Positions 40,302-48,300 of a stretch of 64,000 nucleotides of DNA are shown piece after piece. The translations under genes were made by a program, and so were the position numbers. The DNA comes from Punctularia strigosozonata HHB-11173 SS5 (taxonomy: Eukaryota; Basidiomycota; Agaricomycetes; Corticiales; Punctulariaceae). Each line of letters begins with the position of its first letter. Within the stretch, counting starts at the first letter, position 1. The notes under the pieces are model-generated. The model had not been told where the DNA came from and made no database searches. It worked only from the letters and a program-made list of their open reading frames with translations. The stretch is taken from the NCBI RefSeq assembly GCF_000264995.1, contig NW_006767433.1, positions 3,653,538-3,717,537 of the forward strand, in the 5' to 3' direction.

Positions 40302-40732
40302 TCACTACCAAGGCGAGATTGAGGGATGTCAACACAAAAAACAGAGAGAGGAGGTCGTACGCAATGGCCAGATAGGGCCAGAGCCTTGGAAGCCAGCTCA
40401 CGGGCGCCCTTCTTGGTTGTTGCCATCCCCTGGTACTCAGAGAGCTCTTCTCCGTTCACTATAATGTTGCTCGGTGAGCGATAACTGATCGCAACTGAAT
40501 TGCTTTACTGAGGGGCACGGCCACGTATGTCGGCGTGTGGGGGGGTCCACTGCAGTCGAATCGCCACTCTACGAACTAAGTGAGCACCACGAGATAGAGT
40601 CGGAGAATGAAGCCGCGTACCCAGAGTGAAATGATTTTTAGCGGCCCATTCGTGGACCTGTTGGAAATAACCCCATTGGGGAATCGGATCCGTGAATATC
40701 TGGGTGCCAACGCGATCTCTGAAGGAAGACAT
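40302..40732 (-). CDS. Mini dsRNA-binding protein A (single dsRBD)
   Basis: About 92 residues. ATG 40732 starts MSSFRDRVGTQIFTDPIPQW, then GYFQQVHEWAAKNHFTL (helix 1), an intron (about 40564-40616), EWRFDCSGPPHTPTYVAVPL (beta strands with the GPPH-P-T/Y core typical of dsRBDs), an intron (about 40456-40508), and NGEELSEYQGMATTKKGARE plus LASKALALSGHC (helix 2 with the KKxAxxxA pattern that grips the RNA backbone). A 56 nt intron (40305-40360) lies after the Cys codon, followed immediately by TGA 40302-40304. Without that splice the frame would run to 40226. The protein is almost nothing but the domain. A paralogue with the same layout lies at 44428-44866. Role unknown; small dsRBD proteins can modulate RNAi or act as RNA chaperones. 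An upstream Met at 40795 is possible. Confidence 0.75.
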
Positions 40733-42808
40733 CGATGTATCGTCAGACCTCTTGGAAGGTGGGTGGATCTGGGCAAGACGTAAGTCATCCATACGCAGAG
40801 GCCGCAGTTTATATATGTGAGGAGAGCGCCTAGCCAACGCCTCGCGGATCGATGAGGCGATTGGCGCTCTGATACCGTATGGTGATTTGCATGGGCGCAA
40901 GCGTTTTCAGCAGCAGCAGCTGTACATGAGGTCTGTCTGACTCGTCTTCGCATGCAGCTTTGTCCGCGAGAGGCGGCGCGAACGCAGCCCATTCCGAGAG
41001 AGGCTATAGAGAGGGTGTCCCCGATGCGCTCAGCCTACAGAGCCCGTATACGGGAGTGGTAGCCTAGATTGGCTACATACAGGCAGCCTGATGAGCTTCC
41101 GGACTTCGAAGACAGCCTGCGAGCGCGTCATGAGTCTATGGTTGACTGACTGCTGTATGAAGACCGAAACCGGCCGGGGTCTCGGTCTGACCGGTCATGT
41201 ACATGGGAGGACTGCATTCGTGGTGAGCGCTCGGTTTGTGGCGTCATAGCACGCCGGCCGAGCCCTCGAAAGATAAGTGTAAATTCAGGGCTTGCATTGA
41301 CAGCATCTTGCAAAGAAGATAAAGAAGAGCCAGATTCTGGGTCCGCGGAAACTCCGTACGTAGCTTTGACTATTATCGGCGCACATGGATGCTTATCTGC
41401 ATGGGTGGGAGAGCATCGACAGATGTGTGCGCGCATGTATGTATGTGCCCCGGGCATTCACTTACGACGACGGTTCGCCCGTTCAGCACTGAAGTTGCCG
41501 TCGACGCCTGCGTACCGAGACGTTCCGCAAACTGTCCGGGCGAGCCAAGAGACCGTTGATGAGACCGGAAACCCTGCGAAAACGAGCTTCGCGTTGACAG
41601 CAGATGAGCGTCCTTGGGAGAATGAACGTGGGAAAGACGCCGGCTGCAACGTCGAGGTTGAGGGAGAAGAGTCATCTCGAACGATCCGGCGAGCAGCCCA
41701 CGACATATGAAAGCTCTGCATACGTACGGTAGCGTAAGGACTAGTAAACTCGGAAGACGAATGAAGTCATTCATCCATGTATACTGCTGTACACGCATAA
41801 ACCCAAAATGGGTGCCTTCGGTCCTCGGAGAGCCCGGCATGCGCGCGCGCAGAAGCAGCTCGGAGCCAACGCAGCAACTCTGCTTGTACTCACTTACATC
41901 GTCGCCGTCGTCACTGCCACCACGCCCCAGTCATGTTCCGCTCAGGACGGGGCAGGACCTTGCCCGAGGATAATTTTTTTTGCAGGACCGACGCGTCGAC
42001 GGCGTTTCAATATCCTGTCAACGTCACGAGAACGTGGCCGCTGTCACGCCGCGCACGACGACCGCTTAGTCGGTGCATTGGCAATTGGCCACGGACGGTC
42101 ATGTATCAACTATCATATCACGGATCGCATGCCCACGGCCGGGACAATAGGATGCCATTGTCCACCCGAAAATGGAACCGGAGGACGAAGCGTTCGTATT
42201 TTGAGACAGAGTTACTCAGAAAACAATAACCTGTGAGATCTCCCACGCGGAGATTAAGCGTACCCATAGGAGCGAGCGGTGGGACGCGCGCATATATGCA
42301 CGCCGGTGTCGTCCCTGTGCAATGTGGCCGGCGCGGAATGCGAGGCGTGGGAGTGTGGCGGGGCGAGCGGTTACCGCTTTGACGCGTCTGTCGGTTGGCT
42401 ATTCTTGCACGTTTCGTCTCGGCGGTGGGCCGCTCTGACTCCTCCTGGGGTTTGCACGCAGGCCGCCAATGGAAGCCGCCGGATCTGCGCACCAAGCCGT
42501 CACAAAAGGCGCGAACGTCCTCCTGATTGGATCACCATGCACGGAGAGCGGCCGGGTGACGAGCAGCCAACATATTTGTCCTCTCTCATATCATTTCGCC
42601 GTGCCCCTTCTCGTTATATATAGGCGTCCCCACCCTCCCGAGGCCGCGCTGCCCCTCTGTCAAGCACGACGACTCCCCGTCTGGCCGCCCACCCAGCCTG
42701 ACAGCCGTCATCAGGCCTACGACCCGTTACGAACATCCTCGTAGTCTATCCGTTCCGCTGTTCTCACACCCACCCACCGACCCGTCCTCACCGTGGTCCC
42801 CAGCAGCC
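40733..42808. other. Intergenic, 2.1 kb, no recognised gene
   Basis: Lies between divergent genes. The best open reading is minus 41458-41721 (87 codons, MQSFHMSWAARRIVRDD.. to SAERANRRRK), basic and mitochondrial-presequence-like at its N-terminus, without a domain I recognise; it may be a small gene or chance. The right end (42600-42800) is the C/T-rich promoter of the next gene. Confidence 0.4.
42615..42622 (+). promoter_or_regulatory. TATA box upstream of the 42809 gene
   Basis: TATATATA followed by AGGCGTCCCC and a C/T-rich stretch leading to the ATG at 42809. It is a strong match to a core promoter with a leader of about 150 nt. Use is inferred. Confidence 0.5.
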
Positions 42809-43786
42809 ATGTCTTCTCCAAACACCATCGCCGTCTCCCCGTCGCATCTCATGCACGCCTGCCTCGCCTACCTCAGCGCCGAGCTCGTCACCTTCGATCG
42901 AATCATCGCCCTCCGCTCGCGCCACGCCCTCCGCGTCGCGACCCCGACCCCGGCCGCTTCTCTCGTGTCTCTGCCCAGCGAGGTCCTTCTCGAGATCCGA
43001 TCCCACCTCACCGCTTTTGTCAACGCGGACCTCAAGACCGCGACCGCCTGCGCGCTCATCGACCACGAAGCCGCCGTCCGCACGTCCCTCTGCCCCGACT
43101 GCCTCACGTACAACCGCGAGGTCTTCGGCGAGGACTCTTGGGGCTGGTCCAACTTCAGCGGCGGATGCGACTGCGGCCAGATCGGCTCCGGTGCCGTCGC
43201 CGCCTCCCCGGACAAGAAAGAGGTGGTCGCGTACAAGGACAAGCACGCCTGGCTCGAGGCCCACCTCTCCGGCCAGTCCCCGTCCGGCGTGCATATATGG
43301 GACGTGGTCGAAGGCGTGCTCGACGAGTTCGGATGCAGACTGTCGAGGGAAGCCCCGCGCGGGCGTGTGGAGGTCATTCCCGTCGCCGTCGGGGCCGTTG
43401 AGCAACGCGTAGCTCTCTGGCGTTTGGACGCAGAGCTCGGATTGAGCGCCGGCGAGGACGACTCGGGTACGTCCTTTCTATCTTCTCTCGGCGGTCGAAT
43501 ATCGCGGTCTGACGTGCACGTAGACGCTTTTCCGTCCGAGCCTCCCTCGCCATCGCCGTCAAAACTTGCTCCCATCAGGCGCTCGGTCAAGCCCATGACC
43601 GTGAACCTCCCCTCCGTCCCGGCTACGGAGTGTACTTATACACCACGATTCACGACAATCGCCGCCGCGGCTCTCCTGGCGCCGATCTCGTTCGTGCGCA
43701 AGGCCGCGAGCAAGGAACCCGTTCTGCTCGCTGGCTTCGTCTCCGCGCTCGCCGTTCGTGTCGCCATCGGCTGCCTCATGGCATAA
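42809..43786 (+). CDS. Unrecognised protein with F-box-like helix, Cys cluster and hydrophobic tail
   Basis: A single open frame of 325 codons from ATG 42809 to TAA 43784-43786. Residues 54-67 (LPSEVLLEIRSHLT) resemble the first helix of an F-box. Cys 95 and 98 (CPDC) and 120 and 122 (CDC) could bind zinc or an oxidisable site. A Ser/Pro-rich linker is followed by two hydrophobic segments near the end (IAAAALLAPISFV and LLAGFVSALAVRVAIGCLMA), suggesting a C-terminal membrane anchor. Inside the frame, 43467-43523 has a good intron structure (GTACGT, CTGAC branch, ACGTAG) of exactly 57 nt; splicing it keeps the frame and removes 19 residues around SGTSFLSSLGG. Codon use is strongly GC-ending, as in highly expressed neighbours. 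I recognise no function. Confidence 0.8.
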   Translation: MSSPNTIAVSPSHLMHACLAYLSAELVTFDRIIALRSRHALRVATPTPAASLVSLPSEVLLEIRSHLTAFVNADLKTATACALIDHEAAVRTSLCPDCLTYNREVFGEDSWGWSNFSGGCDCGQIGSGAVAASPDKKEVVAYKDKHAWLEAHLSGQSPSGVHIWDVVEGVLDEFGCRLSREAPRGRVEVIPVAVGAVEQRVALWRLDAELGLSAGEDDSGTSFLSSLGGRISRSDVHVDAFPSEPPSPSPSKLAPIRRSVKPMTVNLPSVPATECTYTPRFTTIAAAALLAPISFVRKAASKEPVLLAGFVSALAVRVAIGCLMA

Positions 43787-44427
43787 AGCAACCCTGTCCC
43801 GTTCTCTTACGTTTCTTATCTCTCTCCACGCTCCTCATCCGTACTCACTCATCTGCAATAACCTTCGTTCTGCATCCTCGCCTTCAAAACGGCGTTCACG
43901 TCCCCAATCGTACACTCTTATAATTATCGCATACTGCTTGAACGTAGACCATCGCATCGTCACTGTAGCATGACCATCCATTCATCCATCCCCCCACTTA
44001 TGTTCCGACCACTGCGCGCATCTTACTATTCCGAGCCCGTTATACCTAATACAGTCGTCTACTTGGCCCGTACCTTCTGTATTCACCGTAAACCGGTTCT
44101 CGGAATCGAATATTGGAGTCCTTAATTCGGCGCCGCAAGTACTGAATATATCACGGTATATTGTTGGTGGGCTCTGTCTTGAGAACGGATGCTCTTTGCA
44201 AACACATCTGAATATTCATAGAACATACAATTGCATAAACATATTGCATGATATCAGTACTCGTAGCAATGCAGACACAGAAGCCTGCGGCATGTGCATG
44301 AACTCATGTTGCATGAATTTCATGATGAAAGCTTCAGAGGCTGTCAATGGTGGTGTTTAGGGTGAAAAGGGAACATGGAGGTTGGGAAAGGCTTTGTAGT
44401 TCTGTTGACGAGATCCTGAGGGATTGA
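43787..44427. other. Intergenic, convergent, becoming A/T-rich to the right
   Basis: 3' flanks. From about 44130 the sequence is visibly richer in A/T than surrounding DNA and contains clustered CATG/GCATGA words (44225-44330). No element ends, inverted repeats or coding remnant were recognised. Confidence 0.4.
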
Positions 44428-44866
44428 TCACTAATGTGATATTGTGAATAAGCTCATCAACATGGTGAAATGTATCATCATATTCACACAATGGCCCGAG
44501 AGAGCCATGGCTGCAGCTGCAGCCTCTTTTGCAGCCTTCTTCTGATAGGCAGAGGCTGCAAAATCAGTCAGCAATTCACCATCGACTATATAAAAATACC
44601 AATATTAATTTCAAGTTCACATGATAAGATATCAAGGACATACAGATGGGTGTAGCTGTAAAAATGGTTTGGTGGGGAGGCCCTTGGTGGGAGATGTGCC
44701 ATCCTATGTCAGGTAATTTCATTGAGCTACATTGCATAGTATAGAAGAAATACTTCTGATCATACTGAGCCGTGAGCCTGCCCACTCATTCAATTGGGGT
44801 AAATAGCCCCACTGGGGAGTGGGTGGCTTGAAGGTCCGCGTTCGCTGACGGTTGGCAAATGCCATT
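44428..44866 (-). CDS. Mini dsRNA-binding protein B (single dsRBD, paralogue of A)
   Basis: ATG 44866 starts MAFANRQRTRTFKPPTPQW, then GYLPQLNEWAGSRL (helix 1), an intron (about 44706-44775), RWHISHQGPPHQTIFTATPI (beta strands with the GPPH core), an intron (about 44588-44645), DGELLTDFAASAYQKKAAKE and AAAAAMALSGHC (helix 2). After the Cys codon a 57 nt intron (44431-44487) precedes the stop TGA 44428-44430; if not spliced the frame ends at the TAG of the intron end. About 87 residues. It shares the PxPQWGY start, three intron positions and the ALSGHC end with protein A, so they are duplicates that have diverged. Gene and introns are more A/T-rich than neighbours. A 16-base perfect palindrome (GGCTGCAGCTGCAGCC) encodes part of the alanine run. 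Confidence 0.7.
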
Positions 44867-45386
44867 GAAAAGCTTAGGTAGGCAGGTATATTCACGGTGA
44901 AGTGCAAGTTACGATGATTTGAGGGTGCAATAGCACACAAGGTCACGGAGGCGTGTTTTCGTCAGAGACAACTCTTATATATACATTCACATAGCTCGAC
45001 AGCTTCCTAGAGCCACGAGTGATAGGGTCCAACATCTCGAAACTTAAGATAACCAGGCCGAGAGCGGAAGATCTCGTGCGTGCGTTTAGGCGAAGGGATG
45101 CTACAGCAGTGAACGAGAAAAGCTGATGACGGGCCAGCGTTGTTTCCCTAGAATATAGGGTGCGCTTCGACTTCACATTCCGAGTCACCGAGTTTGTGGG
45201 CTTCCATGCCATATCAGCCGCGCGAGAAGTCGTATCCTGAGAGAAAATGTCCACTTGACGCTAGGAAAATCATGTCGTAATGCACATTGCTTGAAGGGTT
45301 CATTGCCTACAGTACGCAGCGCGGCATGCGAGAGACGGCAGTCGATTGTCATTATTAGACCGCGATGGCCTTGTCGCTTTCCATAT
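44867..45386. other. Intergenic between dsRBD protein B and NTE1
   Basis: Promoter of dsRBD B and 3' flank of NTE1. A 103-codon minus reading (44943-45254) has no recognised domain. Confidence 0.45.
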
Positions 45387-48300
45387 CATATGGAATTGCG
45401 GCGTTCGCGGCGGCCTTGCTTCTTGGTTTTGTGCATCGCGTCAGCTCCCTCCGCGAGGATCGATGGCAGTAGTCCCTCTTGTCCCCATTTGGTGAGGAAG
45501 TCGGATGCGGCATCATATCCTCTCCGTTGGATCTCCTCGAATTTTCCGAACTGAAGCGTGCCGTACTATAGACGGTCATTATCGCGTCTAGATGACATGG
45601 GCAGGATATACTTACTTCATGCACAGGCATCTGCATGTATAAACATCCACGCGCAACCTTCGCTTCTTCCAGAGTACGGACGCCGGACGCGCTTTCCCGC
45701 AGTCAGCCATGCACATTAGAGGGAGTACAGACATGACTCACTATGCGAGTCGACTCTGTATTTCCGTTATCGCAGGTACGGTGCGAGCATCCGAAAATGG
45801 GTTCCATCGATTGATGAGCAACCACCACCCAGACACATAATCGCCGAAGTTACGAGGCGAGTTATCGTCAATCTAAGGAATCATATGAGGCATCGGCCCG
45901 GAACCAAGGTTCAATCCTCAACTCACGGATCCGACATCGCACGCGAAGACAGCGCTCGCGCCCATGCTGAACATAGCGGAGACCTGTCATAAGGTCAGTG
46001 ACAGCGCTCGGATAGGTTGCCTTGAGGCGAACCGGTAAATTATCCACTGGGGAAAACCATCAGTCCTCGTTGTGATGGTTGAACAATAGATATCCTTACT
46101 GTACCCTCCGTCCACAAGCATATTCCCATTGTCACACAGCGGAGGCAACAAGCCAACCAGCGTCATGGATGCCCCTATTATCCCGGTGCTCAGTCGTCGC
46201 CACACGAACTATTTTCAAGGCGCGAACTCACGGATGAAACGCCACGCGTACCCAGTTTCATGAATCTCCATTCTGGATGTCATGATATTAGACGTGTTAC
46301 AGAAAAACGGGAGCCACATGTCTTCAATGTGGAGATCATAGAACGCCTGGACGGAATCGTTAACGGTCCCGTTGAGCGTATCGCGGTCGACTTACTTTGT
46401 AGATCGAGCGATTGAACTCGTGACCCTGAAATTGCGTCGTTAGCAAAGCTAGCCACGTTCAGCGAAGCTGGCGGTACCGTAGTATATGCTACCAAGGGGT
46501 ACGTAACATCTGAAAGCATTCTCCAGATATTACCCATTCTTCCGCTGAACTGTTTGGCTCGACCAGAGCTCGAGATCAAATCGCCTTCGCGAGCATACAG
46601 ACCGCCAATGAATGCACCGATACTGGTTCCTATTGTTCCATGAGCGCTCGAATGCATTTGCCTACGACACCGAAACTGTACCTCCGACATGATCGACCGG
46701 TATTGCGTGCTCTTCCAAGGCCTTTAACAAGCCCTGATACCAACAGAGTTAGGTCAACCATCTTCTCGAAACACATGTGGTTCACCAAATGAGCTATGCC
46801 TCGAGCCCCGCCCCCTCCTAAAACAATACCTATAGACTTCCCACAAATTCGTCGCGCCAGACGAGCGAAATCGCTGCTATGTTGCGGTCGCTGTGGTCGA
46901 GGACCGGAATGTCCACCCCTGTACTTCTTGAACTCGCTCTGAACGCGGTCTTTCAGGTTCCGCAAAGCGGTCACGGCCGATGGATCGTCTTGAGTTGCCG
47001 ACGGAGCTTTCGTAGGCGGTAGAATGAGACCCTATTTGGTCTAAGATCTGCTGCTGGGTTTGTGTAGTCATGAGACTCACGGGTAGCTCGACGTGTATGT
47101 GTTGGTGTATCCACGGCCGGTTCTATTCGATTGTGAGGGCGGAGCTGTCCGTCGAGGGAGGCGACCTACTTTCAACCATGTTCGAGTGCTCCCTGGCGCA
47201 ACGCTGCGATACGGATGCAGCAAGACCAACTCTTTCCGTGCAGTCGTCTTCAGAGACAACAAAAGCCGTTCATATTCACCAATACCGGGGTCCTCTCCCA
47301 TACCGACTACCATAATGCAGTCGGCCTGCGGAGCACATTGTTCGGTCATTCGCTGAGAAGGGTGATATTCTATGATCCACTGCCACTCACCTGGCGAATG
47401 CAGGTTTGGGTCCACGCGCTGCTCACCGAAGAGTCAGCCACATACAGGACCACACGATACCGTTGTTCTTGATCAGCCAGCCAGCCAGCTGCCTTCAACT
47501 TGCCCATGCGAGTGAAGGCATGTCGACCCAGATGGCTGCTCATCGATGCTTGATTCAGATAAGCGGTAGGCGCATCCATAGTCTCCAACGCAGCATGGAG
47601 CTTCCGAGCAAAAGCGTCGACGGGGACCATACGAGATACCGGAAGGATAGCAACGGTCTTCAGATTCGAGTTTGCTCTGCTCCTTTCTGTCGGTTCACGC
47701 GGAGAGGAAGATATGTTGAGTTCCTCCCTGACACGGGACGCTATTGTTCGTAAGAGGCTACGAGCACAGGTAACTGAGATGCGCAGCAGGAGGAGAAGGC
47801 GAATGGCTTACTGGGTAGTCGCCTTCGGATTGCTGTAACAGGTGGGGGGTAAATAGATCAGCAATTTACGCATCAGCCGAACACAGATCCACGCTGCTCA
47901 CCGAGACGAAACGGCGTTGAACAACGTTTGGGGCATTCGTATCAACTCCGTGTCGCGAATGGCGTGCACGGTATTCCGCCGGGGTGAGGTGGTGATCACG
48001 TCCAATTCTCCGACTGTGTCACCTTGGCCGTATTCTCCAAGAATCGTCACATTACCGCTCTCGCTCTCTGCTATTGCTCTCAAACGGCCATTGATAACGA
48101 TGTAGAAACTGTCGCTGTCATCGCCGGTTCTCCAAAGCACGTGTCCTGCATCGACATGTGTCCAGTCCAAGGCGGCGTCAATATGGAGAACTGAGCGGAG
48201 TGTAAGGATAACGTGAAAGGGGCATTTGTATATGACATTACCAAGGGGCGAAAGCAAGGAAATCAAACGCTTGGCGAGTGTCAATAACACAATCGGTCGC

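Follow-up and report, generated by a model that had tools for sequence, protein, structure and literature searches.

The Dicer partners Loqs, R2D2 and TRBP and the plant DRB proteins are non-catalytic binders of double-stranded RNA (dsRNA) that carry two or three dsRNA-binding domains (dsRBDs). In dsRBDs, the RNA is contacted from the positions of a GPxH loop and of a KKxAK motif in helix 2. Dicer itself has a layout of paired Ribonuclease_3 domains, and the fission-yeast enzyme includes a zinc-binding extended dsRBD with a Cys/His set. Passages of two articles (PMC4469406 and PMC3427163) mention the dsRBD as a component of Dicer. Among the openly licensed matches listed, as far as their accessible text goes, neither small single-dsRBD families of basidiomycetes nor exons reduced to a lone stop codon are described.

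The window, i.e. the whole 64-kb stretch analysed (C1:3653538-3717537, C1 being contig 1), includes two small genes on the minus strand, A (40732-40302) and B (44865-44428), for which in-silico splicing gives products of 90 and 86 residues, respectively, free of internal stops. Splicing reproduced the coordinates proposed in the initial annotation, together with terminal introns of 56 and 57 nt that start with GT directly after a Cys codon and end with AG directly before TGA. It also agreed with the matching intron places noted there, as exons 2 and 3 measure 60 and 98 nt in both genes and the introns lie in phases 1, 1 and 0. The features below follow the splicing model, all junctions of A, B and the third copy described further on being predicted from the DNA.

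40808..40815, minus strand: gene A TATA box TATATAAA, 83 nt upstream of the ATG
40621..40732, minus strand: gene A exon 1, 112 nt, encoding the N-terminal block, PQWGY and predicted helix 1
40569..40620, minus strand: gene A intron 1, 52 nt, phase 1, GTACGC..GTAG, at a matching position in B and copy C
40509..40568, minus strand: gene A exon 2, 60 nt, predicted strands 1-2 with the GPPH loop
40459..40508, minus strand: gene A intron 2, 50 nt, phase 1
40361..40458, minus strand: gene A exon 3, 98 nt, predicted strand 3 and helix 2 (TKKGAR...), SGHC end
40305..40360, minus strand: gene A terminal intron of 56 nt, in phase 0, with a branch-like TTGAC whose A lies 25 nt from the 3' end
40302..40304, minus strand: start of the last exon of gene A, the lone stop codon TGA
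44974..44983, minus strand: gene B TATA box TATATATAAG, 118 nt upstream of the ATG
44766..44865, minus strand: gene B exon 1, 100 nt
44704..44765, minus strand: gene B intron 1, 62 nt, phase 1
44644..44703, minus strand: gene B exon 2, 60 nt, GPPH loop
44586..44643, minus strand: gene B intron 2, 58 nt, phase 1
44488..44585, minus strand: gene B exon 3, 98 nt, predicted helix 2 (QKKAAK...), SGHC end
44431..44487, minus strand: gene B terminal intron of 57 nt, in phase 0, with a branch-like TTGAT whose A lies 27 nt from the 3' end
44428..44430, minus strand: start of the last exon of gene B, the lone stop codon TGA

The two proteins share 45% identity (39/86 aligned residues). Both had been said to begin with PxPQWGY; as a small correction, the PQWGY block stands at residues 18-22 of A and not at the protein start.

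Both proteins match the dsRBD profile PF00035, with A just under its curated cut-off of 23 bits (21.6 bits, E=3.3e-4) and B just over it (23.1 bits, E=1.1e-4), while the third copy, copy C, falls below (18.5 bits, E=3e-3). The match covers 2-61 of 66 in A and the second two thirds in B and copy C. Searches of solved structures at E up to 1 returned seven sequences with protein A, all of them dsRBD proteins by name (PKR, ADAR, DRB), and 14 with a profile of the three copies, among which a single one is not a dsRBD (7zq8, E 0.19); the top matches are the dsRBDs of PKR, ADAR and DRB4. A and B are thus regarded as carrying weak but credible putative dsRBDs. The GPPH core and the KK-A-rich second helix initially described in A and B are borne out by the alignment, in which the loop histidine and the helix-2 KK are invariant in all three copies. 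The loop reads GPPH in A and B and GEPH in copy C, which therefore has no loop proline, and the helix-2 motif is KKGAR in A and KKAAK in both B and copy C. Outside the canonical domain, the three copies have in common an N-terminal F, R, T, F followed by a P-x-W-G block, and the SGHC end. No conserved Cys/His zinc set is present in the three-copy alignment, the sole invariant Cys being the C-terminal one.

Querying all 33.57 Mb of the assembly (32 contigs) with the A and B proteins revealed copy C, through exon-by-exon matches at C1:3573188-3573552 (minus strand). The full gene spans C1:3573552-3573123 on the minus strand, on the same contig as A and B and about 120 kb away from them. Its exons of 100, 60, 98 and 3 nt encode 86 residues ending in TSGHC with the same intron phases, so that exons 2 and 3 measure 60 and 98 nt in all three copies, and its 62-nt terminal intron is directly followed by a lone stop TAA (TGA in A and B). 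The proteins of B and copy C are 63% identical (54/86). The initial proposal of a diverged duplicate pair was thus right about duplication and divergence and incomplete about the number, as there are three copies; the original observation is real and stronger than first reported.

Genome protein searches with A, B and copy C gave no further convincing copy. Beyond the three loci, weak matches lie at C24:30171 (E 0.152) and C5:1644282 (E 0.061). In a local tblastn on 16 records, run without composition correction, the C24 stretch matched B with E 7.4e-4 and 31% identity over 48 residues; it is treated as probable noise because its sequence, read on both occasions, has no helix-2 part. A match at L043:3161-3211 was likewise set aside, as its sequence looks by eye, from its motifs, like part of an SKI2/MTR4-like helicase. 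Relatives were confirmed neither among 399 pattern stretches in viral contigs nor among 32 in bacterial and archaeal genomes.

Silent differences per silent site amount to 0.84 (A-B), 0.63 (A-C) and 0.87 (B-C), which after correction correspond to infinite, 1.37 and infinite distances, whereas replacement differences per replacement site reach 0.37, 0.40 and 0.24, respectively. Divergence at silent sites has reached or almost reached saturation, protein change is restrained, and the genes look real and under selection. Intron similarity between copies is low, with z from -0.6 to 1.2 in eight of nine comparisons. A TATAWA box stands 81-118 nt upstream of the ATG in each copy (250 nt searched each), against a window background of 822 out of 18214 stretches of 250 nt (4.5%) and 287 out of 18260 stretches of 86 nt (1.6%). 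A, B and copy C, each predicted to encode hardly more than one dsRBD, would together constitute a small and long-established subfamily of stand-alone single-dsRBD proteins, putatively a new one within an old domain family.

When the genome was scanned in six frames with PF00035 (E up to 10), 12 places were listed; A, B and copy C are missing from them, so that the scan is not exhaustive. Ten places were read, and the other two, one of which was also read, lie in a DEAH-helicase-like frame at C1:1879 kb. The ten include a two-dsRBD gene, dsRBDs of larger proteins and six single-dsRBD-like loci:

C2:593461-593715, single-dsRBD-like locus
C3:1578138-1578386, single-dsRBD-like locus
C7:1095429, single-dsRBD-like locus
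C1:2272588, single-dsRBD-like locus
C1:3638073, single-dsRBD-like locus
C4:743111, single-dsRBD-like locus

In all six, an in-frame stop follows soon after helix 2 within the same open frame, no intron being needed; one of them sits in an open frame of 328 codons. An additional locus of this kind at L049:5900-6200 (C1 ~3639.4-3639.7 kb) brings the number of such other loci in the genome to at least seven. This locus and L049:4440-4680 (C1 ~3638 kb) are dsRBD-like loci of a different type placed between copy C and A/B; in one of the two, helix 2 appears to be interrupted by an intron. Contig 1 thus carries a loose cluster of five small dsRBD genes or loci (copy C, the two at 3638-3640 kb, A and B) over about 125 kb.

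A tree was built from 12 domains, leaving out the L049:5900 locus and the C11 and C1:1879 kb dsRBDs; in it, the three SGHC copies form one group (support 84/82). The neighbours of this group, with weak support (73/78), are the two-dsRBD gene and the dsRBD at C4:2175375. The C4:2175375 protein resembles by eye the end of an RNase III protein and is not listed by the PF00636 search. By eye as well, the last intron of the two-dsRBD gene (C1:2389087-2389738) may lie within two codons of its stop, which might reflect an ancient intron following the dsRBD.

The gene families of RNA interference (RNAi) are represented in this genome by 14 Piwi matches in six regions (C16, C1, C10, C4, C12), 16 RdRP matches in five separate regions (C12, C1, C24, C9, C6) and six Ribonuclease_3 matches spread over four regions, of which two show the paired-domain layout of Dicer, these counts referring to matches and not to intact genes as many of them span frame breaks. 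By match counts, the RNAi set appears well stocked. Eleven Peroxidase_ext matches suggest a white-rot-type Agaricomycete. Around A and B, five of seven neighbouring window frames have Pfam matches (Adaptin_N, WLM, RanBP zinc finger, cNMP-binding and, below cut-off, NTE_Ploop), and frames 42560-43786 (plus strand) and 46280-46723 have none. The former is a long open frame lying between genes A and B, with no match at E up to 0.01.

The isolation of the stop codon is more than chance, because an AG followed by a stop at 45-70 nt is found for only 376 of the 7494 GT dinucleotides on both strands of the window (5.0%) and because the third paralog was found independently and uses a different stop codon. 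The proportion is similar when the background is restricted to GT after TGY (11/207). Genome-wide, a DNA motif for SGHC followed by GT has eight sites, namely A, B, copy C and five unrelated ones, against one for the reversed control pattern. An AG|stop roughly 40-90 nt past the GT occurs at the three family sites and at none of the five unrelated ones. As this pattern requires GT, it is blind to intronless copies, a limit from which the protein searches are free. Each of the three terminal introns holds a branch-like YTRAY, whose A is 25 nt (gene A), 27 nt (gene B) and 37 or 30 nt (copy C) away from the 3' end. Two of the six other introns of these genes have one as well, the remaining four having no recognizable site by the pattern used. 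From the sharing of the terminal intron by three copies out of three versus none of five unrelated sites, from silent saturation and from restrained protein change, it follows that this intron is old and has been kept.

What the terminal intron does is less simple. It had been suggested initially that its retention could yield longer C-termini, and it may be conceived as a regulated switch by which retention bypasses the stop and gives a longer, perhaps unstable or re-targeted protein. The conservation of its position in all copies across a long divergence fits such a switch, for which there is also a fungal precedent: according to passages of PMC9549241 that cite Freitag 2012, alternative splicing or read-through gives rise to a peroxisomal GAPDH isoform, and read-through to an extended Pgk1. 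However, the retained readings add 44, 18 and 10 residues in A, B and copy C with no common sequence, and no SKL-type peroxisomal signal (PTS1) was seen by eye at the end of the retained products inspected or of those inspected from alternative acceptors 40-160 nt downstream. Intron 3 itself is not conserved between A and B or between B and C (z 0.0 each), the A-C value of 2.7 coming with a T-rich tract common by eye. A functional extended C-terminus therefore finds no support, since the tails are unrelated and by eye show no classic signal, and a regulated switch is judged improbable. The same open frames past SGHC would also allow the terminal intron to be absent, translation simply continuing into copy-specific tails. 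This requires that a GT right after the Cys codon and an AG|stop at 56-62 nt coincide three times out of three, against the background and the unrelated sites given above, that each supposed intron holds a branch-like site by accident, and that tails are unrelated next to an invariant SGHC; such an account is very improbable. The boldest version, in which the stop of a dedicated single-dsRBD family is supplied only by splicing, the terminal intron persists since retaining it gives a mis-tailed protein, and splicing efficiency sets the dose of a dsRNA-binding RNAi inhibitor, possibly with dsRNA feedback on the transcript, is speculative and given hardly any credence. The terminal intron is better seen as an inherited quirk than as a proven switch, in a gene structure that is unusual and probably neutral.

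For the proteins, the alternative to RNA binding is that of degenerate dsRBDs acting by protein contacts, such as dimerization or association with a Dicer or helicase partner. The predicted pI values (6.4 for A, 9.7 for B and 6.2 for copy C) make A and copy C slightly acidic, which weighs somewhat against strong RNA binding. Since these two are not basic and copy C has GEPH, some copies may bind RNA less strongly or no longer. The weak profile scores, the missing loop proline of copy C and the conservation of an N-terminal block and an SGHC tail outside the usual domain point in the same direction, whereas the loop histidine and helix-2 KK kept in every copy speak for RNA contact; this alternative is considered unlikely. 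The most likely reading, held with moderate confidence, would be that of stand-alone proteins that bind dsRNA and either accompany the RNAi enzymes or compete with them. The role as RNAi regulators or RNA chaperones proposed at the outset is compatible with the kept loop histidine and helix-2 KK and with the RNAi families predicted in the genome, the link to RNAi being one of co-occurrence in a single genome.

The combined reading, that of an old single-dsRBD subfamily whose members serve as dsRNA-binding accessories or competitors to RNAi enzymes and have inherited an ancestral intron before the stop, is given somewhat better than an even chance. According to it, the pre-mRNA would be spliced three times, the last event joining the terminal Cys codon to the stop and so fixing the C-terminus as SGHC. 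The protein would then bind dsRNA via the loop histidine and the helix-2 KK and, because it has no catalytic domain, would act as accessory or competitor for dsRNA handled by RNAi enzymes. Most likely, an ancestral intron stood behind the dsRBD and, already ahead of the divergence of the copies, the stop had come to open the next exon as its first codon; the lone-stop arrangement would have been inherited since, with a terminal intron probably spliced constitutively. Should they bind dsRNA, the proteins would be candidates for modulating RNAi or antiviral dsRNA sensing in a wood-decay fungus. The analysis documents a compact fungal dsRBD subfamily that escaped the six-frame PF00035 scan and whose members gene finders could mis-model, as a lone stop codon makes up their last coding exon. 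This conserved exon also offers a clean natural case for setting neutral relics against introns that control dose.

Compared with the other single-dsRBD-like loci of the genome, the SGHC genes are alike in having one dsRBD and, by eye, an intron between strands 2 and 3, whereas those loci are devoid of SGHC and of the PQWGY block and stand on a separate tree branch. The two-dsRBD gene has a helix-1 start (YLPLFNQ) resembling WGYLPQLNEWA, but differs by its two domains and by a stop that is not directly at an intron. Splice-switched peroxisomal GAPDH and PGK isoforms end with a PTS1, which by eye the inspected alternative C-termini of the family do not. The zinc-binding extended dsRBD of fission-yeast Dicer differs by its Cys/His set, of which the three-copy alignment of the family shows no conserved counterpart. 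With the PF00035 dsRBDs of PKR, ADAR, plant DRB and RNase III, the family shares the profile match, the GPPH/GEPH loop and the helix-2 KKxA(K/R), while being distinguished by stand-alone proteins of 86-90 residues, weak scores, an extra N-terminal block of about 17-20 residues and the invariant SGHC end. Like Loqs, R2D2, TRBP and the plant DRBs, its members are non-catalytic and predicted to bind dsRNA, but they would do so with a single dsRBD.
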